Assembly: GCA_023251935.1 (NCBI GenBank)
Contig: JAHEXV010000017.1
Span: 4,024 to 38,016 of the forward strand
Length of the DNA stretch: 33,993 nucleotides
Origin: a bacterium
Lineage (GTDB): Bacteria > Actinomycetota > Thermoleophilia > Solirubrobacterales > 70-9
Direction: 5' to 3'
Shown: positions 3,659 through 24,934 of the stretch, piece by piece
Layout of the letters: each line of letters starts with the position of its first letter
Numbering within the stretch: the stretch's first letter is position 1
Notes under the pieces: model-generated
The model's database searches: none
What the model saw: the letters and a program-made list of their open reading frames with translations, nothing else
Told to the model about the DNA's origin: nothing
Position numbers and translations under genes: made by a program

Positions 3659-5446
3659 CTAGTGCCGCGTCTCGAACTCGCAGCCCTTGACGATGGAGTT
3701 GGGGTCCTTGGGAAGCAGATCGAGTTCCGCCTTGTCACCTGGGCCAGGGTTCCTGGCTCCGTCACAGTCGATCAACTTGTCCGAGGTCAGATCGCGGGCG
3801 TAAAGCTGATCGTTTGCCCCCATTCCCTTCATCACGTCGGCGCCTGGGCCACCGATCAGGATGTCCCTGAGCGGCCCGCCGGTCAGGGTGTCGGCTCCCG
3901 GCCCGCCGTCAAGCGTGCTCGGGATAGGCCCGGTGTTGTTGTGGTTCGGGATCCCCGTGGCGTTGTTCACGAGGTCGTTCTGGTCGCCAGCATCCACTCG
4001 GATCCGAGTGACCCCGAAGCCGCAAAATGCCGTGTATTGGCCGCTTTGGGTGCAGCCAGCGCCCGCGTCAAGGCCGGAGCCATAGCCCGGGGAGCGAGGG
4101 AAGTCCGTGACCGTCAGCGGGAAATAGTCCAAGCGCCAACTGAACCGCAGGTTGTCCTTGGCTCCCGGCGCAGCGGTCACCACCAAAATCGATCCAGAGA
4201 TGCTGACCGAAGCCGTGCGAACCGTGAACGTGCGGGTGGCCGGCGTCGGGTCGGTCTTGCCAGTCGAGTCGGTGGCCCGGACGGAGAAGGTGTGAGGGCC
4301 GTCCGCGAGATGCGGACTCGTGTAACTCTTCGGCGGGGACGACGAGCCACAGGGCATATAGGGGCGCGAGTCGATCCTGCACGCAAACGTCGTATCCAAG
4401 TCGGGTGAGGAGAATCTGAAGGTAGGACTCGGTTGGTACGTCGTCCCCGACGGGCCGGCGGTAATCGTCGTCGGGGGTGGGGAAGCGCTGAACCGGAACT
4501 TCTGGACACGGTAGTTGCCCGCCTCAACGACGTACACACTGCTCGAGGCGTCGACAGCGATACCGATTGGGCCATCGAACTGCCCGTCACCGGAGCCCTG
4601 GCTTCCCCATTTGGCGAGGAACATGCCCGAGGAGTCAAACTTCTGGATTGTGTCGCCTGTGTAGTCGGCGACGTACACATTGCCCGCTGGGTCGGTGGCG
4701 ATGCCCAGCGGACTCTGAAACTGACCGTCGGCCGAGCCCTGGCTTCCCCATTGGCCGAGGAAGGTACCCGCGGTTGAGAACTTCTCGATCCGGCTGTTGA
4801 AGTAGTCCACGACGTAGAGATTGTCTGAGGCGTCGATGGCTATGCCCTCTGGCCCCTCGAGCTCGCCATCTCCAGAGCCCTCGGTACCCCACTTGGCGAT
4901 GAAGTTGCCGGAGGGGTCGAACTCCTGTATCCGGTTGTCCGAGACGTCAGAGACGAAGACGTTCCCCGAAGAGTCGGTTGCGATGCCGCCTATGTCGGTG
5001 AACTCGCCGTCCCCGGAGCCTGGGCGGCCCCACTGCGCGAGGAAGGCGCCAGAGGACGAAAACTTCTCGATCCGCGCGTTGCCTCTATCGGCGACGTAGA
5101 CGTTTCCCGAGGAGTCGGCGGCAATGGCTCCAGCGCCGTTGAACTGCCCGTCCCCGGAGCCCTGGCTTCCCCATTTGGTGAGGAACTTGCCCGAGGAGTT
5201 GAACCTCTTGATCGGGGTATCGGAGACGTAGACGTTGCCCGAGGAGTTCGTGGCGATTCCCTGCGGGACCTGAAACTGCCCGTCCCCGGAGCCCTGGCTT
5301 CCCCACACCTGGGCGAATCGAACCGAGGCGGAGGCGGAAGGGGTCACGGCCAAGAGGAGCAGCGCGATCGCGCCCATCGGAACGATGGCCATCAGGGCGA
5401 GCGCTCCGACTAGGCGTGGGACGCCGCCCGGATCAGTCTCGCCCAT
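3659..5446 (-). CDS. Secreted NHL-repeat beta-propeller with C-terminal calcium-binding repeats
   Basis: Encodes about 595 residues from the ATG at 5446. After an N-terminal hydrophobic signal segment (ALALMAIVPMGAIALLLLA, ending SASAS), six NHL repeats follow, each beginning WGSQGSGDGQF and containing GIA.DSSGNVYVADxxNxRIxKF, enough for one six-bladed propeller. Next is an Ig-like module (FRFSSPDLDTTFACRID to DPTPATRTFTV) also found in the secreted protein at 10173. The C-terminus has GGPGADTLTGG-type nonapeptides typical of RTX calcium-binding rolls. It is likely extracellular and binding rather than catalytic; ligand unknown. In-frame upstream GTGs (5482, 5590) make the start uncertain. 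It is monocistronic, with a terminator after the stop. Confidence 0.85.
   Translation of the reverse strand: MGETDPGGVPRLVGALALMAIVPMGAIALLLLAVTPSASASVRFAQVWGSQGSGDGQFQVPQGIATNSSGNVYVSDTPIKRFNSSGKFLTKWGSQGSGDGQFNGAGAIAADSSGNVYVADRGNARIEKFSSSGAFLAQWGRPGSGDGEFTDIGGIATDSSGNVFVSDVSDNRIQEFDPSGNFIAKWGTEGSGDGELEGPEGIAIDASDNLYVVDYFNSRIEKFSTAGTFLGQWGSQGSADGQFQSPLGIATDPAGNVYVADYTGDTIQKFDSSGMFLAKWGSQGSGDGQFDGPIGIAVDASSSVYVVEAGNYRVQKFRFSASPPPTTITAGPSGTTYQPSPTFRFSSPDLDTTFACRIDSRPYMPCGSSSPPKSYTSPHLADGPHTFSVRATDSTGKTDPTPATRTFTVRTASVSISGSILVVTAAPGAKDNLRFSWRLDYFPLTVTDFPRSPGYGSGLDAGAGCTQSGQYTAFCGFGVTRIRVDAGDQNDLVNNATGIPNHNNTGPIPSTLDGGPGADTLTGGPLRDILIGGPGADVMKGMGANDQLYARDLTSDKLIDCDGARNPGPGDKAELDLLPKDPNSIVKGCEFETRH
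4487..5305 (-). repeat. Six in-frame NHL repeats, 141-bp period
   Basis: Six repeats encode the propeller blades. The invariant Trp codons are spaced 44, 47, 47, 47 and 47 codons apart, so the repeat is 141 bp except for the first blade, which is 9 bp shorter (three residues missing before the KRF strand). Several copies share long near-identical DNA stretches around the WGSQGSGDGQF codons, implying recent duplication or gene conversion. Confidence 0.85.
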
Positions 5447-5529
5447 TCCCAACTGACCATCCGATCCTCCCCCAATGCTCACGGCCTCAAGACTAACCCC
5501 ACGGGTTCCGGGAGCGGAGGCGCCGGGAC

Positions 5530-5751
5530 TCACTGCCGAGCGGGAGGCCGAGCTTGTCGAGCGGGCCTTCGAGAGGGCACCAGGGGGCACAAAGTCGACT
5601 CAGCGCCGCCCAAGCCGGGACAAGCCAGACCAAGCGTGCCCGCGGCCTCGCTGAGGACCGGTATCGCCGCCTCCAGCGTCGCCTCGGCCTCCGCGCAGCA
5701 CTGGTCCTCCGGGTCGACGACCCGGTGAAGGCCGTGAGCGACCGCGGGCAC
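5530..5751 (-). other. Weak open reading frame in the 5591-5885 gap
   Basis: The roughly 300 bases between the NHL gene and the glycosyltransferase run hold no recognisable gene. The only reading frame with coding-like composition is a 73-codon minus-strand frame from a GTG at 5751. Its first half (HRVVDPEDQCCAEAEATLEA) has GC-rich third positions, but the second half decays into low-complexity Arg/Pro sequence and runs into the upstream part of the NHL gene. No ribosome-binding site or known domain is visible. It may be a gene remnant or chance. Confidence 0.15.
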
Positions 5752-5885: not shown

Positions 5886-6668
5886 GTGGGGCGTGCCGTG
5901 GAAGGACGCCCGACTGTTCTCGTCCTTACGCCCGTCAAGCAGGCTGCCGCCCATCTCCCGCGGTACTTCGAGGCGTTGTCGCGGCTGGATTACCCGCCCG
6001 ACCGCCTGAGCATCGGCATCCTCGAGGGCGACAGCACCGACGACAGCTATGAGCGGATCACGGAGCGCCTCCCCGGCCTGCGGGAGAGGCACTGTCGGGT
6101 GACGCTGACGCAGTGGAACTCCAACTTTCAGATCCCCGACGGCGTCCCGCGCTGGGCGCCCCCGTTCCAGCTGCCGCGTCGGGTGGTGCTGGCGAAGGCG
6201 CGAAACCGCCTGCTGAACGCCGCCCTTCACGACGAGGAGTGGGTGCTGTGGCTGGACATCGACGTGGTGGAGTACCCCGCCGACGTGCTCGAGCGCTTGC
6301 TAGCGACCGGCAAGGACATCGTCACCCCCCACTGCGTGGTCGAGTGGGGAGGGCCGACGTTCGACTGGAACGCCTGGCGCAACAAGGGCCGGGAGCGCAT
6401 GGACGCCCTGCGAGGAGGTCCGGACCTGGTTCGCCTCGACGGGGTGGGCGGGACCATGCTCCTGATCCGGGCCGACCTTCACCGCGAGGGTCTCGTCTTC
6501 CCCCCGTTCCCGTACGGTCGCCGCAACCGCTTCGCCCGCGAGACGAACCCGTTGTTGGGACATGGCATGGGCGAGGTCGAGACCGAGGGGCTTGGGCTGA
6601 TGGCCAAGGACATGGGCCACGAGTGCTGGGGAATGCCCAACCTCGAGATCGTCCACCCCAACCGGTGA
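5886..6668 (+). CDS. Glycosyltransferase, Anp1/GT62-like GT-A fold
   Basis: Encodes 260 residues. The N-terminus (VLVLTPVKQAAAHLPRYFEAL) and ILEGDSTDDSYE (about 45-56) form the nucleotide-sugar-binding start of a GT-A fold. The DxD metal/nucleotide motif is WLDIDVVEY (Asp124, Asp126). The later GGTMLLIRADL and the acidic GEVETEGLGLMAKDMGH segment fit the acceptor side. This pattern resembles the Anp1 (mannan polymerase subunit) family, so it probably transfers a sugar from an NDP-sugar in the cytoplasm; donor and acceptor cannot be read. The GTG at 5886 is the most upstream start before the fold; another GTG at 5898 is possible. Its stop overlaps the next GTG by four bases (GTGA), so it begins a coupled operon. 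Confidence 0.85.
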   Translation: MGRAVEGRPTVLVLTPVKQAAAHLPRYFEALSRLDYPPDRLSIGILEGDSTDDSYERITERLPGLRERHCRVTLTQWNSNFQIPDGVPRWAPPFQLPRRVVLAKARNRLLNAALHDEEWVLWLDIDVVEYPADVLERLLATGKDIVTPHCVVEWGGPTFDWNAWRNKGRERMDALRGGPDLVRLDGVGGTMLLIRADLHREGLVFPPFPYGRRNRFARETNPLLGHGMGEVETEGLGLMAKDMGHECWGMPNLEIVHPNR

Positions 6669-7855
6669 GCCGAGCTCAGATCCTGTTCCTGACGCCGGTA
6701 ATGCCGGCCGAGGGCGGCAACGGACTGGCCATGCGTGCGGGGCTCCTGCTCGAGGGGCTGGCCCGGGCCGGTCCGGTGCGGGTGCTCGTGGCGCCGACGT
6801 TCGGCCACCCGGGCCCGCCAACCGCTCTGGCCGCTCGCCTCGCCGCGTCGGTGGAGGTCCTGCCGCTCGACCCCAACCCGGACGCCGTCGCCGACCTGAC
6901 GGCTCGACTCGGCACTCCGGAGGGACGGGCTCGGGCCCGTGCCCTGCATCCTCTTCCGGCCCTGTGCCGAACCGCGACGCCTGCAGCGTCGAAGGCCGTC
7001 GCCGAGGCGGCGCAGGGTGTGGCTCTGGTCCTGGCGATGCGGCTCTACCTCGCGCCCCTTCTGGACGTCCTCGTCGACCGGCCGCGGCGCCCCGCGCTCG
7101 CCCTCGACGTCGACGATGTCGAGTCGCTGACGCAGCGGAATCTCGGCCACCTTGAGGAGGCGTCGCGATTCGAGCGGCTCGAGAGGACCTACCTGCCGCT
7201 ACTCGACCGCGTAATCGCCTGCTCCAGGGACGACGCCGACCGCCTCGCCGACCTCCACAAGCTGCGGGCGACCGTTGTGGTGCCCAACGCCATTCGCCCG
7301 CCCGCCTCCGTGGGCGGTCGCCTCCTCGCCCACCATGACCTCGTCTTCGTTGGCAATCTGAGTTACGGCCCGAACGCCGACGGCGCTCGCTGGCTCTGCC
7401 GGGAGGTACTGCCGCGCCTGGAGGGGCGGACCGCGGCGCTGGTGGGCAGCCGGCCGGGCCCGGATCTGCTGGAGCTGGCGGCCGACTGCGCCGTGACGGT
7501 CGCCGGAGACGTCGCCGACGTCGCTCCTTGGTACCGGTCGGCTTCGGTCGCGGTGGTCCCGATCCGGGCCGGCGGTGGCACCCGAATCAAGGTTCTCGAG
7601 GCCCTCGCCCACCGCCGACCCGTGGTGGCGACCACCGCGGGCGCGCGCGGCCTCGAGCTGGCGGGAAGCGACGGTCCGATACTGACGGCCGACACCGCGG
7701 ACGCCTTCGCTGCCGCATGCCGGCGGCTCCTCGATCAGCCGACTCTCGCCGCTCGCTTGGCCGAACGGGGCGCGGAGGTCGTCCTCACCATGAGCAGCGT
7801 GGACGCCGTCGCCCCGCTCGTTGAGGTGCTCGCCCTCGATACCTTCCGACGGTGA
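6665..7855 (+). CDS. Glycosyltransferase, GT4/GT1-like GT-B fold
   Basis: Encodes 396 residues from the GTG that overlaps the preceding stop (GTGA). The N-terminal domain begins QILFLTPVMPAEGGNGLAMRAG, a typical GT4 glycine loop after the first strand. An ALDVDDVESLTQRN segment near residue 145 is characteristic of GT4-like enzymes that act on surface glycans. The C-terminal Rossmann domain starts LVFVGNLSYGPNADGARWL and ends with GGGTRIKVLEALAHRRPVVAT (about residues 300-320), the usual NDP-sugar-binding motif; the conserved Glu is in KVLEALA. It is probably a retaining transferase. Four-base overlaps at both ends tie its translation to the GT-A enzyme before it and the PqqD-like protein after it. 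Confidence 0.9.
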   Translation: MSRAQILFLTPVMPAEGGNGLAMRAGLLLEGLARAGPVRVLVAPTFGHPGPPTALAARLAASVEVLPLDPNPDAVADLTARLGTPEGRARARALHPLPALCRTATPAASKAVAEAAQGVALVLAMRLYLAPLLDVLVDRPRRPALALDVDDVESLTQRNLGHLEEASRFERLERTYLPLLDRVIACSRDDADRLADLHKLRATVVVPNAIRPPASVGGRLLAHHDLVFVGNLSYGPNADGARWLCREVLPRLEGRTAALVGSRPGPDLLELAADCAVTVAGDVADVAPWYRSASVAVVPIRAGGGTRIKVLEALAHRRPVVATTAGARGLELAGSDGPILTADTADAFAAACRRLLDQPTLAARLAERGAEVVLTMSSVDAVAPLVEVLALDTFRR

Positions 7856-8124
7856 GCGGGCTCGAGGATCCGGAGCACCCGCTGGCCGTCGAGGGGGTCG
7901 AGGTGGTTCCGACCGCCGACGGATACGTCGTCTACGACGAGCAGCGCGACCGGGTTCATTACCTGAACCACACCGCTGCCCTCGTGCTCGAGTTCTGCAC
8001 CGGCGAAAACAGCGCAGAGGAGATCGTCCGAATGCTGCAGCTCGCCTACGATCTCCCGGAGCCGCCTCAGGCCGAGACGCGCGAGTGCCTGACCAGGCTC
8101 CGTGCCGAGGGGCTGGTGCACTGA
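7852..8124 (+). CDS. Stand-alone PqqD-like protein (RiPP recognition element fold)
   Basis: Encodes 90 residues with the PqqD layout: a short beta pair (VEVVPTADGYVVYDEQRDRVHYLNHTAALVLEFC) and a helical second half (SAEEIVRMLQLAYDLPEP...TRECLTRLRAEGLVH). In characterised systems this fold binds the leader of a substrate peptide and presents it to a modifying enzyme. No radical-SAM enzyme, cyclodehydratase or lasso-peptide protease occurs in the window. Its immediate neighbours are glycosyltransferases and the leader-bearing protein at 8162. The GTG start overlaps the previous stop by four bases, so it is made together with the GT-B enzyme. Partnership with those neighbours is inference from the coupling. 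Confidence 0.82.
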   Translation: MSGLEDPEHPLAVEGVEVVPTADGYVVYDEQRDRVHYLNHTAALVLEFCTGENSAEEIVRMLQLAYDLPEPPQAETRECLTRLRAEGLVH

Positions 8125-8161
8125 GCCCTCGCCCCTCACGAGTTGAGTTAGACTCGCCGAG

Positions 8162-8665
8162 ATGCCGCCGGACATCGAAGATGGGGTGCTCGAGCGCGTC
8201 GCGGTCAACCGGCGGAAGCTGGTCAGGGACGTCTTACTCGGCACCGCCTTTGCGGTCCCAGCGATCGCCTCGTTCGACATGCGCTCGCTGACCGCGTTCG
8301 CCGCCAACTGCCTGGCCCCCAACCAGACCCTCCTGGCGCAGGACCAGAGATTCAGGATCAAGTACCTACAGTTCGACCAGCGTTCCTCCAACGGCGTGCT
8401 CAGGGTCAGGCTCGAGGTCCACGACGTGAACACGAACAAGAACGTCAGTTCCAGGGACCTCAAGGTGAAGCTGCGGAAGATCAAGCCGGAGCCGTCGGCG
8501 AACGTCGATCTCCCCCAGAAGTTCAGGTTCAACCGCGACGGCGGCCGCCACTACAAGCTCAGGCTCGACACCAGCCAATGGGCGCCGGGCAACTACCAGC
8601 TGTTCTTCACGGTCGGAGCCGATAAGACTCGCTTCAAGGTCTTCGCCGCGGTCGGAAACTGCTGA
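8162..8665 (+). CDS. Exported leader-bearing protein of unknown function
   Basis: Encodes 167 residues not recognised as a known family. The N-terminus reads like an export or recognition leader: NRRKLVRDVLLGTAFAVPAI then ASFDMRSLTAFAANC, that is, an RR pair, a hydrophobic stretch and a first cysteine at about residue 43. It is not a canonical lipobox (Asn at -1), and the Tat motif is imperfect. The mature part is a beta-rich domain of about 120 residues (FRIKYLQFDQ, LRVRLEVHDVN, HYKLRLDTSQWAPGNYQLFFTVG, TRFKVFAAV) resembling an Ig-like fold, ending in a cysteine (VGNC). It sits 37 bases after the pqqD-like gene and may be the substrate of that unit. Confidence 0.75.
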   Translation: MPPDIEDGVLERVAVNRRKLVRDVLLGTAFAVPAIASFDMRSLTAFAANCLAPNQTLLAQDQRFRIKYLQFDQRSSNGVLRVRLEVHDVNTNKNVSSRDLKVKLRKIKPEPSANVDLPQKFRFNRDGGRHYKLRLDTSQWAPGNYQLFFTVGADKTRFKVFAAVGNC

Positions 8666-8694
8666 GCGGCGGCCTATCCGCAACCACTCGCCGC

Positions 8695-9807
8695 GTGAGC
8701 ACACCGCTGCTCAGCGCGACCCTGATCGTTCGCGACGAGGAGCGCAATCTGCGCGAGTGCCTGGGCTCGGTCGACGGCGTGGCCGATGAGGTGGTGATCG
8801 TCGACACCGGCTCCACCGACGGCTCGATCGAGATCGCAGGAGAACTTGGAGCCCGGGTCGTCTCGCATCCCTGGCGGGGCGACTTCTCCGAGGCACGCAA
8901 CGTCGCGCTCGAAGCGGCACGGGGCGAGTGGATCCTCTACCTCGATGCCGACGAACGCCTTCGTCCCGTCGATCGCGGTGGGGTCTCCGGGCAGCTTCGC
9001 GGCGCGCGCGAGACCGCGTTTCGCATCCTCCTGCACCCGTTCGCCGGCGCGACGCCGTTCTTCGAGTACCGGTTGTGGCGAGCCGATCCCGAGATCCGCT
9101 TCCGGGGCGCGATCCACGAGCAGGTCGTGGACGACATCCATCGTGTGGCGGCGCGCGACGGGCGGCCGGTCTCCGACTGGGGGGACCTCGAGCTCGACCA
9201 CCTCGGGTACGAGGGCGACCAGGCGTCCAAGCACCGTCGCAACCTGCCCTTGCTGCGGCGCCAGCTCGACGCCGACCCGAACAACATCTTCAACTGGAAC
9301 CACCTGGCTCGTGTGCTGATCGCCGTCGGCGACCCCGCGGGGGCGGAGCAGGCGCTGGAGGAGGCTGTGGCGCTTGCGCGGGTCGAGGGCTCGCCCGCCA
9401 GCCACAGCAGCCTCGCATGGGGCGACCTGGTTCGGCTGCGGCATGACCGCGGCGCCGACGTCACATCGCTGCTCGCCGAGGGCAAGGCTCGCTGGCCGGA
9501 GAACTGGCTGCTCGTCTGGATCGAGGGCAACATCCTGCTCGACACCGGGATGCTCGAGGAAGGCGCGGCGTGCTTCGAGCGCTTGCTCGCTGTCGACGTC
9601 GCCATTCTCCCCGAGCAGGGCGTCGCCTACGATGGCCGCCTTTTTGGGTCGTTCGCGTACTCCTCGCTGGGCCTTGCTCTTTTTCGCCTGGGGCGCTACG
9701 AGGAGGCGGCCGAGGCCTACGCCGCCGCCAGCCTCTTGGAGCCCGACTGCTCCGAGCATGCCGCCAAACAAGCCCTCGCCGAGGCCCGCGCGCGAGCCAC
9801 GCCGTGA
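8695..9807 (+). CDS. GT2-family glycosyltransferase with C-terminal TPR repeats
   Basis: Encodes 370 residues from a GTG. The N-terminal GT2 domain shows LSATLIVRDEERNLRECLGS, VDTGSTDGS (36-44) and the DxD motif LYLDADERL (Asp84, Asp86); HEQVVDDIHRVA is a later conserved part of this subfamily. From about residue 215 the protein is alpha-helical with TPR-like repeats (NHLARVLIAVGDPAGAEQALEEAV; SLGLALFRLGRYEEAAEAYAAAS). GT2-TPR fusions of the SunS/WaaE type are known, and SunS-like members glycosylate peptides; that this one does so is only an inference from the neighbouring PqqD-like and exported proteins. It is 29 bases after the exported-protein gene and is probably the last cistron of the unit. 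Confidence 0.88.
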   Translation: MSTPLLSATLIVRDEERNLRECLGSVDGVADEVVIVDTGSTDGSIEIAGELGARVVSHPWRGDFSEARNVALEAARGEWILYLDADERLRPVDRGGVSGQLRGARETAFRILLHPFAGATPFFEYRLWRADPEIRFRGAIHEQVVDDIHRVAARDGRPVSDWGDLELDHLGYEGDQASKHRRNLPLLRRQLDADPNNIFNWNHLARVLIAVGDPAGAEQALEEAVALARVEGSPASHSSLAWGDLVRLRHDRGADVTSLLAEGKARWPENWLLVWIEGNILLDTGMLEEGAACFERLLAVDVAILPEQGVAYDGRLFGSFAYSSLGLALFRLGRYEEAAEAYAAASLLEPDCSEHAAKQALAEARARATP

Positions 9808-10059: not shown

Positions 10060-10101
10060 CTCATAACCCGGAGGTCGCAGGTTCAAACCCTGCCCCCGCT
10101 A
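10060..10101 (+). pseudogene. 3' half of an initiator-type tRNA (CAT anticodon)
   Basis: From the anticodon loop onward this is a good tRNA 3' half: loop CTCATAA (anticodon CAT), stem CCCGG, variable region AGGTC, T-arm GCAGG-TTCAAAC-CCTGC, acceptor strand CCCCGCT and discriminator A. The expected 5' parts (acceptor AGCGGGG, D-arm, perfect CCGGG stem) are absent upstream; only an offset CGGGG remains. It therefore resembles a tRNA-fMet truncated from its 5' side, the usual product of site-specific integration into a tRNA 3' end. A hairpin follows immediately, as behind a real tRNA gene. Confidence 0.6.
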
Positions 10102-10172: not shown

Positions 10173-11261
10173 CTAGCCCTTGATCTTGAACGTCTTCTTG
10201 GCCGGAGTCGGGTCGAGTGCGTTCTGCGGGCTCTTGGCCTGGACCTGGAAGGTGTGCCTGCCCCTCTTCAGGTGCTTGTAGGTCTTCGGCGAGCTGCACG
10301 CGCCGTAGACCTTGTCGTCCCGCCTGCAGCGGAAGGTCGAGCCGGCCTCCGATGAGGAGAACCTGAATGTCGCCTTGCGCCGCTTGGTCCGGATCCTCGC
10401 CGAATCGATCCTGGTCTCCGGCGCCTGGAGCGAGTCCACCGCCACGCCACAGATCTGATCGCCGCCCGTGTGGATGAAGCTCTCCTTCACGCCGGTGCTG
10501 TCCGTTCTCGCCCGTCCGATCGTGTTCGTGCCCGCATTCGCCCAGTACAGGTGGGAGGACTTCACCGCCACTCCGCATGGTGTGCTGGCATCCCCGATGG
10601 TGCTCGCGTCGGCGCCCATGCCGGTGCTCGTGTTCGCGCGCCCGATGTTGGTCCCTCCGCCGAAGAACCCGCTGTCGGCCCAGAAGATGTTGGCGGTGTT
10701 GATCGCGACGCCGCAGGGGAACGCGATCCCCGGAATGGTTACCCAGTTCTGCGTCACGTTGTCGCCACCGAAGCTCGCACGCCCAATCAACGATGGCGTG
10801 CCCGAGTCCTCCGCCCAATACACATGACCGCTGTCAACCGCCACGCCGCACGGCGTTGTGGTCGGGATCAGGTTCCGCTGGCGACTCGAGCCGTTGAGGT
10901 TGGCGCGGCCCACCGCGCTGTCGCTGATGCTCGACCAGAAGATGTAGGACCCGGTGACCGCGACCCCCGAGGGCTCGGGCACGCTGATGAAGTGGTTGTT
11001 CACCCCGCTGCCGTCGAGGTTGGCGCGGCCGATCGAGTTGCCGTTCTGGTTGGCCCAGTAGAGGTGGGCCGAGTTCACCGCGACCGCGAAGGGGAGACTG
11101 CCGGTGGCGATGAAGTGATTGTCGACACCGCTGCCGTCGTTGTTGGCGCGGCCGATCTTGGCGTCCTGCGAGCTGGCCCAGTAGATGAACGCGTGGGCGC
11201 TTGGGACGAGCAGCAGCACGAGCACGCTACTGAGGGTGATCAGGAGCCCGACGCGTTTCAT
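10173..11261 (-). CDS. Secreted YWTD-like beta-propeller with C-terminal Ig-like module
   Basis: Encodes 362 residues from the ATG at 11261, chosen because a clean signal peptide follows (MKRVGLLITLSSVLVLLLVP, then SAHA|F). Six repeats of about 41-46 residues follow, each with a YWA or FWA strand, an IGRANxDGSGV turn and a GVAV strand; this is the pattern of LDL-receptor YWTD-type propellers. The C-terminal 80 residues (TFRFSSSEAGSTFRCRRD to DPTPAKKTFKIKG) form the same two-cysteine module found at the corresponding place in the NHL protein at 3659. It is probably extracellular and structural or ligand-binding; no catalytic residues are evident. Confidence 0.85.
   Translation of the reverse strand: MKRVGLLITLSSVLVLLLVPSAHAFIYWASSQDAKIGRANNDGSGVDNHFIATGSLPFAVAVNSAHLYWANQNGNSIGRANLDGSGVNNHFISVPEPSGVAVTGSYIFWSSISDSAVGRANLNGSSRQRNLIPTTTPCGVAVDSGHVYWAEDSGTPSLIGRASFGGDNVTQNWVTIPGIAFPCGVAINTANIFWADSGFFGGGTNIGRANTSTGMGADASTIGDASTPCGVAVKSSHLYWANAGTNTIGRARTDSTGVKESFIHTGGDQICGVAVDSLQAPETRIDSARIRTKRRKATFRFSSSEAGSTFRCRRDDKVYGACSSPKTYKHLKRGRHTFQVQAKSPQNALDPTPAKKTFKIKG
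10431..11183 (-). repeat. Six in-frame propeller repeats
   Basis: Repeats of roughly 41-46 codons each encode YWA...IGRAN.DGSGV...GVAV. Spacing varies because of short loop insertions, notably a glycine run (GFFGGGTNIGRAN) in the fifth repeat, so the copies are older and more diverged than the NHL repeats at 4487-5305. Confidence 0.75.
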
Positions 11262-11627
11262 GGCTGTTAACGCCTCACGCGCCTCAGCCACGCGGTCTTG
11301 CGGTTGAGCTGACGGTGCTCGCGCTGTAAGTGGCTTCACGTCGACCTTCGCGTTGGCAGCTCGCCGCGGGTGGCCGTGGCGTCGACGGGACCCTTCATCC
11401 ATCCGACATCGATCTACGCCCCGATCCCCACACGCGCAATATCGACATTCGGCTCGCCGCCCTTGATCCCTGTAGGCGGTACCCGGCGACCTCGGTTCTC
11501 AGGCATAGGACGCTTGGGATCGCCACGGCCCTGCGCGCACCCAGGTTTCGTCCTGCGACTCGAGACGGCCTCGCCGGCGTGTTGCTCGAGCAGGGCGCGC
11601 ATCTAGCTCCAGGCGTAAGAGGGGCGA
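11262..11627. other. Non-coding stretch upstream of the DUF899 fragment
   Basis: About 365 bases hold no reading frame with a recognisable domain on either strand. The missing N-terminal half of DUF899 is not detectable here in any frame, so that half appears lost rather than frameshifted. I see no clear promoter for the minus-strand propeller gene. Confidence 0.4.
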
Positions 11628-12308: not shown

Positions 12309-13979
12309 ATGGTCCGCGCACCTACCACCGCTTTGCGGCAGCCCGAGGCCCCCCGCAGCCTCCTCGCCAACGGACTAGCGGGCGGCAACGGCTCCGCCCT
12401 GGTCCAACCGCGGCCCTCGCTCGGCAGCCTGCAGCGTGTCAAGCACGGCCGAGTTACCTTGCTGCGGGCGACGATCGACTTCCTGGGCGCCTCGGCGGCA
12501 CTTGCGGCCGTCATGTTGCAGAGCGGCTTGCCGGCGTGGCCGGCGATCCCGCTCGCCCCGCTCCTCCTGGTCGGGCTCTCCCAGGTCCTGGGCCTCTACG
12601 GGTCGTCGGACCACCTCGTGAACCGAACGGCTGATCTCGACGGCCGGCCGCTTACAGGTCGGCTCCTGACGACCGCGCTATTCGCCTGGACGGCGTCCCT
12701 GCTGGTCGCCAGCCACGGTCCCGTGCTTGGGGTGATCGGGCAGCTGGCGCTCTGGATCTTGGCGTTCACGCTCGGCTCGCTGGGGAGCGCGGCAGTCGCT
12801 CCAGTCGCCCGTCGGATCGAACACGTCGAGCGGTGGTTGGTGGTGGGCGACACCGAGACCGTGGAGAGGCTCAAGGCGTATGAGCCCCTGCGTGCCCATG
12901 CCAGGATCGTGCACAGCGTTCCGCCGCCCGGCCCGACCTCCGTCCCGCCGGCCGATCGCGAGTCGGTCCTACGGATGGTGGATGACAACGGAGCAGATCG
13001 CGTCGTGATCGCCGCCCGAAGCCTGGACGACAACGGCCTGGTGGCAATGATCAAGACGTTCCGCTCGCTCGGGGTGCCGGTCAGCCTGCTGCCACGCCCG
13101 CTGGACCTTCTTGAGGCTCCTGCGGCGGTGCCCGTTCGGCTCGGCGGAGTCCCCCTGATCCAAGTCAAGTCTCTCGCCGCCCAGGGACGGCCCCCTTACC
13201 GAGGCCCCGATCGTCGCCGCGACCGGCGGACACGAGTCAGCGTGGTGATCCCCGCCCTCAACGAAGCCGACAACATCGCCCACGTCCTCGAGCGTTTTCC
13301 CGAGGACCTGCACGAGGTGATCCTGGTCGACGGCAACTCGCGCGATCGCACCGTCGAGGTCGCGAGGCAGGCACGCCCCGAGATCCGCGTTGTCACCCAG
13401 CCCGGAATCGGCAAGGGCGATGCGCTACGCGCCGGCTTCGCCGCGGTGACCGGAAATCTGATCGTGATGATCGATGCCGACGGCTCTGCAGATCCCGCCG
13501 AGATCCCGCGCTTTGTGGCGGCGCTTGAAGCGGGGGCCGACTTCGCCAAGGGGTCGCGCTTCCTCCCTGGCGCGGGCAGCGCCGACATAACGAAGGTTCG
13601 CCGACTGGGGAACTACTGCCTCAGTGGCGTCGTCAATCTGCTCTACCGCACCCACTTCTCCGACCTCTGCTACGGCTACAACGCCTTCTGGGCTCGGTGC
13701 CTGCCGTTCATCTCGCTCGACGTAGCCGGATTCGAGGTCGAGACTCTGATCAACCTGCGCGTGGCCAACGCGGGTATGAGGATCTCGGAGGTACCCAGCT
13801 ACGAGGCCGACCGCCTCTCCGGCGAGACCCACCTCAAGACCTTCCGCGACGGCTTCCGGGTGCTGTTCACGGTTTTCGGGGAGTGGGGACACCAGCACGC
13901 CCCGACCCACCGAGGAGACAGGAAGGCGCGAAATGCGGAGCATCCGGCCCGCCGGCAGGACCCCGTAACGGCCGGGTGA
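12309..13979 (+). CDS. Chimeric membrane protein: glycosylphosphotransferase-like N-terminus fused to GT2
   Basis: Encodes 556 residues in three parts. Residues 50-165 contain about four membrane helices. Residues 172-290 form a Rossmann-like domain (WLVVGDTETVERL, DRVVIAARSLDD, VPVSLLPRPLDLLE, RLGGVPLIQV) as in the N-terminal half of WbaP/CpsE-type polyprenyl glycosylphosphotransferases. After an Arg-rich linker (PPYRGPDRRRDRRTR), residues 308-530 are a GT2 domain (VSVVIPALNEADNI, LVDGNSRDRT, GKGDALRAG, and DxD at IDADGSADP, Asp389/Asp391), like DPM/GtrB-type enzymes. The usual phosphotransferase domain is absent and GT2 replaces it. It probably transfers a sugar to a lipid carrier at the inner membrane face; donor unknown. 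Confidence 0.85.
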   Translation: MVRAPTTALRQPEAPRSLLANGLAGGNGSALVQPRPSLGSLQRVKHGRVTLLRATIDFLGASAALAAVMLQSGLPAWPAIPLAPLLLVGLSQVLGLYGSSDHLVNRTADLDGRPLTGRLLTTALFAWTASLLVASHGPVLGVIGQLALWILAFTLGSLGSAAVAPVARRIEHVERWLVVGDTETVERLKAYEPLRAHARIVHSVPPPGPTSVPPADRESVLRMVDDNGADRVVIAARSLDDNGLVAMIKTFRSLGVPVSLLPRPLDLLEAPAAVPVRLGGVPLIQVKSLAAQGRPPYRGPDRRRDRRTRVSVVIPALNEADNIAHVLERFPEDLHEVILVDGNSRDRTVEVARQARPEIRVVTQPGIGKGDALRAGFAAVTGNLIVMIDADGSADPAEIPRFVAALEAGADFAKGSRFLPGAGSADITKVRRLGNYCLSGVVNLLYRTHFSDLCYGYNAFWARCLPFISLDVAGFEVETLINLRVANAGMRISEVPSYEADRLSGETHLKTFRDGFRVLFTVFGEWGHQHAPTHRGDRKARNAEHPARRQDPVTAG

Positions 13980-24169: not shown

Positions 24170-24934
24170 CTACTCCACGCGACGGATGGTCCAAAAGTCG
24201 CCCGAGAGGCTGCCCTGCAGCAGATAGGGGTAGGGCATCGTGAAATAACCGCCCATCCCCCACCCCTTGCCCCAGGAGTTACGGACGATGAACCACTGCT
24301 TGGCCTCGTCGTAGCCGACGGCCAGGACCGCGTGTCCCCCGAGGAGGGCTTCGTTCGTCTGCGGCATCGGCACGTGGCCGCTGCTAGCCACCTGCTGGCT
24401 CTCGAAGCTCTCATAGACGGCAAAGCCGAAGAAAAACGGAAAGCCCGAGGCTAGGCAACCCTTGAGCTGATTGAGCGCCTGGGTGAGGCGCAGATACCGA
24501 ATCGCTTGGTGCTTCTTCGCTTGATCGTAGGCGGCCTTGGGCGGCTTGTCGTCGAACTTGCCGATCTTGTACGGCCAAGTCGGGGTTTCCTTGCATGCCC
24601 CCTGCTTGGCCACGGCCTTCACGCCGTCACGGAGCATCGCGCCGCTGTCCGAGTGGACGGTCCCCTCGATCACCCGCTCGTTGTAGTAGATGAAGAGGCG
24701 CGAGGGCGTAAACGCCGTCTGCTTCTGCTTCGTCTGGTCGAACTCGAGCGCTCCGCCAATCGCATTGGCCGTGCAACTCCCGAGCTGGCCCTGGTTATAG
24801 ACCGCCGGACACTGCTTGCGCATGTCGACCTTGGCGGGAAGCTTCTCGAGCTCCTCGACCGGAGCGGCGTAGAGCAAATCGCGCCCATCGGGCAGGTCCG
24901 GCGTCCACCCGTAGCCCTTGATCTTCCGTGCCAT
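24170..24934 (-). CDS. Papain-like cysteine peptidase (C1 family)
   Basis: Encodes 254 residues behind a full anti-SD match (AAAGGAGGT, eight bases from the ATG). The catalytic set is intact: Gln48 and Cys54 in NQGQLGSCTANA, His201 in GGHAVLAVGYD, and Asn219 in VRNSWGKGWG. There is no signal peptide and no long inhibitory prodomain; only about 45 residues precede the active-site region (GYGWTPDLPDGRD, then VDMRKQCPAVYNQ). Bacterial C1 proteins with this short GYGWxPDLPDxRD start are known, but their substrates are not. It appears to be cytoplasmic unless exported by an unconventional route. Confidence 0.9.
   Translation of the reverse strand: MARKIKGYGWTPDLPDGRDLLYAAPVEELEKLPAKVDMRKQCPAVYNQGQLGSCTANAIGGALEFDQTKQKQTAFTPSRLFIYYNERVIEGTVHSDSGAMLRDGVKAVAKQGACKETPTWPYKIGKFDDKPPKAAYDQAKKHQAIRYLRLTQALNQLKGCLASGFPFFFGFAVYESFESQQVASSGHVPMPQTNEALLGGHAVLAVGYDEAKQWFIVRNSWGKGWGMGGYFTMPYPYLLQGSLSGDFWTIRRVE

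Follow-up and report, generated by a model that had tools for sequence, protein, structure and literature searches.

A PqqD-family protein, glycosyltransferases and a Tat-like leader protein paired in a rare actinobacterial gene cassette

RiPP recognition elements (RREs; RiPP, ribosomally synthesized and post-translationally modified peptide) are known as guides in the making of small peptide natural products. Serine-rich repeat glycoproteins are low-complexity proteins that are glycosylated in the cytoplasm by the linked GtfA/GtfB enzymes before export through the accessory Sec system, and the proofreading chaperones of the twin-arginine translocation (Tat) pathway, e.g. TorD and DmsD, bind the Tat signal until maturation is finished. 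This report deals with a five-gene cassette at positions 5886-9807 of a 33,993-nucleotide stretch (the window) of contig JAHEXV010000017.1 from an actinobacterial metagenome-assembled genome (MAG; GenBank GCA_023251935.1, class Thermoleophilia), in which a stand-alone PqqD-family RRE is encoded together with glycosyltransferases (GTs) and a protein bearing a Tat-like leader. We lean, if only slightly, to the reading that the PqqD protein binds an F-x-x-P-x-[IV] segment in the Tat-type signal of this protein and delivers the precursor to cytoplasmic GTs before Tat export.

The route proposed here would work in a similar way to both. The cassette differs from the serine-rich repeat system in its Tat-like export signal and PqqD-type guide, and neither SecA2/SecY2 nor GtfA/GtfB was noticed when the cassette was read (no family search was made for them). 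The PqqD fold is not that of TorD and DmsD, and maturation here would be glycosylation instead of cofactor insertion. Fusions in which an RRE domain is joined to a GT, the likeness to the present case, have been flagged as uncharacterised in PMC7470986 (RRE-Finder) and in the 2025 update of that work (PMC12710340); what the window adds is an RRE that stands alone, a cluster that is conserved, and a Tat-like leader shared by a class of candidate substrates. DUF2063-type RREs pair with DUF2282 precursors bearing a signal peptide, which are Sec-dependent and carry no recognisable RRE motif (PMC12710340); an RRE paired with signal-peptide precursors is thus common to both, whereas the leader in the window is Tat-like with a conserved motif and the partners are GTs. 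The HPr-rel-A system (TIGR04353 PqqD with HprK-related kinase A) has a related PqqD domain, and related loci also have Tat-like neighbours, but the window cassette carries GTs in place of an HprK-related gene. The lasso B1 proteins, RREs for YxxP leaders, are the nearest RREs and their motif has the same form as F-x-x-P-x-[IV]; the window differs in its full-size exported substrate, its GT partners and a genome with no match to the B2 peptidase. In a literature search that covered mostly papers readable without subscription, no paper that connects RREs or PqqD to Tat signals turned up, and neither did a published description of the exported substrates, the shared leader or the conserved cluster.

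The five co-directional genes, the first three linked by two GTGA overlaps, are present as called in the initial annotation, with coordinates and Pfam families in agreement. An Anp1/GT2-like GT of GT-A type (5886..6668, + strand; PF03452 Anp1, 146 bits, E 1e-42; PF00535 Glycos_transf_2, 32 bits) is followed by a GT4 enzyme of GT-B type (6665..7855, +; PF13692 Glyco_trans_1_4, 91 bits) and the PqqD-family RRE (7852..8124, +). Genes 1/2 and 2/3 share exactly four bases at 6665-6668 and 7852-7855, respectively. After a gap of 37 bases comes gene 4 (8162..8665, +), which encodes the leader-bearing exported protein, i.e. the proposed substrate, and after another 29 bases the GT2-TPR enzyme (gene 5, 8695..9807, +; PF00535, 62 bits; TPR_2, 54 bits). 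A sigma-70-type promoter scan of the cassette returned nothing. No strong domain was detected in the gene 4 product with Pfam and NCBIfam.

When the gene 4 protein was used as query against the genome contigs, one locus was returned, L003 from an Acidimicrobiia MAG. The match is confined to residues 4-58, the leader (45% identity, with A-F-A-V-P-A-I-A-S-F-D-M identical); beyond it the L003 protein is a different domain, the Ig-like Big_3_5. The L003 PqqD gene adjoins the leader gene on the other strand, and its product is 55% identical to the window PqqD over 82 residues (tblastn). The leader proved common to proteins in 11 other loci, and nine aligned leaders give the consensus RR-x-[FL]...[FI]-x-x-P-x-[IV]-x-[ST]-F, in which R-R, P and F are invariant (R17, R18, P33 and F38 of gene 4). 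In the window the leader spans amino acids 1-48 (8162..8305, +), with the Arg pair at 8210-8215 and the proposed RRE recognition segment, FAVPAIASFDM, at 8249-8281 (both +). The features of a Tat signal (N-terminal RR, hydrophobic core, AxA-like end) are present, most leaders have RRxF, and TatC is encoded elsewhere in the genome (PF00902, 209.5 bits, G000:C77). Each leader in turn was left out, and the profile of the remaining ones still ranked it first among the reading frames of its locus, with E-values of 1.7e-17 to 1.7e-4 (database size 100,000); two paralogues in locus L095 were removed together and occupied the top two ranks.

A leader profile was then run over 744 genomes (395 Acidimicrobiia and 349 of the window's class), with E<=1e-8 taken as a strong match; the thresholds were of our choosing. 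Strong matches occurred in only 11 of the 744, and in ten of these 11 a PqqD gene lies in the same cluster. Within the window's class only two genomes pass, the window's own (G000) and G372, exactly the two with strong PqqD orthologues (hypergeometric 1.6e-5). Nine Acidimicrobiia genomes pass, eight of them with PqqD in the cluster at distances of about 55 bases to about 5 kb (G150 was counted across its two overlapping contig ends). The exception is G998, whose contig stops within GT2-TPR, the gene that immediately follows the leader; the PqqD position is not covered because the contig ends before the site where the genus-mate G1004 has PqqD. Conversely, eight Acidimicrobiia genomes have a PqqD match at E<=1e-19, seven of which belong to the strong leader set (hypergeometric 1e-12; both hypergeometric figures ignore relatedness, and the genomes are samples, many of them fragmented), and the eighth, G171, has a weaker leader match (2.8e-4), likewise within the cluster. 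The leader profile contained no sequence from G422 or G150, yet both were detected. The question raised earlier, whether homologues of the exported protein neighbour the pqqD-like gene, is thus answered positively for ten of 11 genomes, with the 11th contig truncated.

The pair might still be fellow travellers: the leader may simply be the standard Tat signal of a single, rapidly evolving family of exported proteins, and PqqD may act on something else. A Tat motif and a hydrophobic core yield part of the leader similarity for free and clusters could move as blocks; but on dissimilar passengers the Arg pair, P and F never vary and keep a near-fixed spacing, genomes without PqqD show no strong leader matches, and the pair persists through changes of gene order and orientation (divergent in L003, mixed in L017). 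We regard this explanation as quite improbable.

The window PqqD is the sole PqqD match in the whole genome, which is 84% complete. It belongs to PF05402 (41.0 bits, cut-off 23.4) and falls below the cut-offs of the lasso chaperone model NF033530 (34.1 of 70 bits), of TIGR04353 (30.2 of 35 bits) and of the PQQ biosynthesis model TIGR03859 (22.6 of 46 bits), while a PqqD copy in L017 exceeds that of TIGR04353 (38.4 versus 35 bits). By sequence as well as by fold, the solved structures closest to the window PqqD are those of leader-bound lasso B1 proteins (TfuB1, 6jx3; TbiB1, 5v1u). The predicted model shows strands followed by three helices (mean pLDDT only 61.8), and its top Foldseek matches are lasso RREs (best E 7e-3). 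The recognition motif mapped for the PqqD, FusE and McjB groups is W/Y/LxxP plus L/I (PMC12710340). The leader segment F-x-x-P-x-[IV] fits this motif and sits within the hydrophobic stretch that Tat would require. Because the lasso B1 structures are the nearest ones and the segment fits the mapped motif, we propose that PqqD binds the leader.

The same kinship could point to a glycocin- or lasso-type RiPP: all or part of the passenger would be a core peptide, released by cleavage and secreted in the form of a small glycopeptide. Some passengers of merely 29-48 residues and the distant similarity of the GT2-TPR enzyme to SunS (62 bits) would suit such a product. The passengers, however, reach a maximum of 244 residues, folded domains are among them, and 7 of 13 have no cysteine; no match to the lasso B2 leader peptidase (PF13471) was found in the 84% complete genome; the signal is of Tat type and not a double-glycine or lasso leader; and the GT2-TPR enzyme lies far under the SunS cut-off (TIGR04195, 62.2 of 350 bits). 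A RiPP of this kind is therefore improbable in our view. The link to the SunS type drawn in the initial annotation is not supported, for the same two reasons, the score and the cysteine-free passengers. As that annotation described, the 8162 protein has an RR leader and two cysteines, C50 where the leader ends and C167 at the C-terminus, but these cysteines are not conserved in the relatives.

Homologues of gene 1 were found in the L018 (53%) and L150 (43%) clusters, of the GT4 enzyme in L017, L088, L089, L090, L091 and L150, and of gene 5 at 34-55% identity, usually directly downstream of the leader gene. In 10 of 12 loci GT2-TPR follows the leader gene immediately and on the same strand, with a gap of -4 to 71 bases in the nine where it was measured (the tenth is L018/L149, where the leader gene is cut by the contig end). 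A mirror-tree comparison of PqqD with GT2-TPR gave a weak correlation (r = 0.45), from which we draw no conclusion. PqqD domains are fused to GT4 in L150, to a GT11 fucosyltransferase in L095 (C-terminal match, E 5e-13 with our own profile but under Pfam's own threshold) and to an FkbM methyltransferase in L017; the GT4 and PqqD genes that overlap by four bases in the window thus form one single protein in L150. Such fusions argue that PqqD serves these enzymes, and they support recruitment of modifying enzymes in relatives.

These enzymes also bear on another explanation, namely that PqqD does no more than chaperone the export of the Tat precursor and that the GTs build a separate surface polysaccharide, of which the exported protein is the unglycosylated anchor or partner. 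GT4, GT2, fucosyltransferases, epimerase and FkbM are indeed typical of polysaccharide loci as well, and no acceptor motif was found in the passengers. An export chaperone, on the other hand, has no need of fusion to GTs and a methyltransferase, the leader gene directly precedes GT2-TPR, and no flippase, polymerase or polysaccharide export gene was noticed on reading the cassette (no family search was made). We consider this explanation rather unlikely. A PqqD-guided maturation of the exported protein, as suggested from the initial annotation, is supported by the leader-PqqD linkage in ten of 11 genomes together with the fusions.

The passengers are mutually dissimilar, except within one genus, while their leaders are conserved. 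The kinds include a predicted beta-sandwich (window), an Ig-like domain (L003), a helical-looking protein as judged by eye (L017), and repeats (PNQY, NGS, SNTTDGG, PSGN, GGGGNT and T-rich stretches); they are often rich in N, S, T, G and P. The window passenger (8306..8662, +), which starts NCLAPNQT, is predicted from a low-confidence single-sequence model to be a seven-stranded beta-sandwich (mean pLDDT 54.5, about 55-80 over residues 61-160), and its structure matches are generic beta-sandwiches, i.e. oligosaccharyltransferase subunit domains, CrdA and P19/FetP, which point to no particular function. Cysteines at the leader end and C-terminus were considered as modification sites and rejected, given the passengers that have none. 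PNQ was spotted post hoc after the leader in the window, L017 and L091, and in 10 copies in L090; we take it as a lead only.

Several points weigh against glycosylation guided by PqqD. The window leader reads RRKL (NRRKLVRD), with Leu at the usual Phe position of the Tat motif, and the window passenger is predicted to be a folded domain, not a mucin-like stretch. N-x-S/T sequons, tried as acceptor, are not enriched (32 versus 27.1 in shuffles, with 315 of 2000 shuffles reaching 32) and were rejected. The leader profile was seeded with leaders first found beside PqqD. Finally, in the 16 kb of L003, PqqD and leader are present without a GT2-TPR gene.

With these points in mind, the proposed mechanism runs as follows. 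The PqqD-family RRE would bind the F-x-x-P-x-[IV] stretch of the Tat-type signal and bring GT4 and GT2-TPR to the passenger, in trans or, in relatives, by fusion; elsewhere it would bring a fucosyltransferase or the FkbM methyltransferase. The passenger would be glycosylated in the cytoplasm prior to export, which may be delayed as long as the bound leader is hidden from the export machinery, and upon release of the leader the protein would exit through Tat; the delay would parallel that imposed by Tat proofreading chaperones. The passenger could be almost anything because the leader would act as its address. More tentatively, and with doubt outweighing confidence, we suggest a general leader-addressed pathway: an RRE reads a motif in a Tat signal, any passenger becomes a substrate of cytoplasmic glycan assembly, and RiPP-type leader logic controls whole secreted glycoproteins. 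If true, this would join RiPP leader recognition, Tat export control and bacterial protein glycosylation, give the uncharacterised RRE-GT fusions a substrate class, and make the leader a portable tag for glycosylating chosen proteins.

PqqD profiles, built first from the window and L003 sequences and then from six, served to collect the related clusters. The genomes searched numbered 396 for the phylum, 399 for the window's class and 395 for the class that includes G150, which we infer to be Acidimicrobiia; the strongest matches gave the loci described below. As judged from these genomes the cluster is rare but recurring across actinobacteria. L017, from the same class as the window, encodes an FkbM-PqqD fusion, a GT, another PqqD, a homologue of the window GT4, the leader protein and GT2-TPR. 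L018 and L149, two contigs of G150 with overlapping ends, together carry an Anp1-type GT, a sulfotransferase-like/GT protein (by reading), a GT, PqqD, GT2-TPR and the leader. PqqD, GT4, leader and GT2-TPR make up the clusters of L088, L089, L090 and L091. L150 (G171) has, besides the GT4-PqqD fusion, a second protein with a PqqD match beside an FkbM domain, the leader and GT2-TPR, and L021 (G422) has PqqD, the leader, a GT4 whose C-terminal part matches PqqD weakly (E 1e-5) and a GT2-TPR-like protein. L095 and L148, from one genus, encode leader protein(s) and a large GT2-TPR, which in L095 is joined with GT7C and GT10 domains and accompanied by the GT11-PqqD protein. L003 comprises PqqD, the leader, a GT10 fucosyltransferase and an NAD-dependent epimerase. 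Gene order and orientation vary, yet PqqD and leader remain paired. The fucosyltransferases, epimerase, FkbM methyltransferase and sulfotransferase-like domain have the look of an enzyme set for making decorated glycans.

The window is part of contig C47 of the G000 MAG (2.49 Mb, 114 contigs). The cassette is a self-contained unit, since the nearest gene on either side (for an NHL-repeat protein, 3659-5590, and for propeller-like repeats, 10173-11402) runs in the opposite direction. Neither the three genus-mates nor any other family member searched has the cassette. At 10060-10101, 250 bases downstream of the cassette, 41 of 42 bases equal the 3' half of tRNA-Met(CAT), for which an intact gene is present on contig C102 (L163:582-655); this fragment is possibly an integration-site remnant. 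Absence from the genus-mates together with such a tRNA fragment is the pattern that site-specific integration leaves, so the cassette may have been acquired horizontally. Further along, the product of 12309-13979 (+) combines an N-terminal part like an exopolysaccharide sugar-transferase with an AglJ-like GT2 domain (142 bits to TIGR04182, under its cut-off). The window was said at first to contain no protease; it does encode a papain-family C1 peptidase (PF00112, 62 bits; 24173-24934, - strand), 14 kb off and on the other strand.

Weaker PqqD matches, which often lie beside or are fused to Tat-like proteins, suggest that PqqD-Tat coupling extends beyond the GT branch. Next to PqqD genes of another branch are found Tat-like proteins that carry a WxxPx[IV]-like segment (L022:7858-8295, L024:8554-9174, L025:3427-3924, L151:8999-9577), and some of these loci have HprK-related proteins/kinases. 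In one genus of the window's order, PqqD, an SRR Tat-like signal and a secreted domain are found in one chain (L044:4200-5096, L045:8184-9356, L047:4575-5381, L048:8125-9141, L052:8756-9598), near some of which is a protein that looks HprK-like. Elsewhere PqqD, an RR signal and a T/P-rich mucin-like passenger form one polypeptide (L094:1-579, L097:394-1362, L098:1787-2719, L106:1926-2822, L107:8922-9890), several sharing the C-terminal ...FTG. Small proteins with a lasso-like leader, possible RiPP precursors, also occur near PqqD, at L043:9444-9602 (e.g. KKTYSKPRVESESVFETL) and L051:7822-7974.

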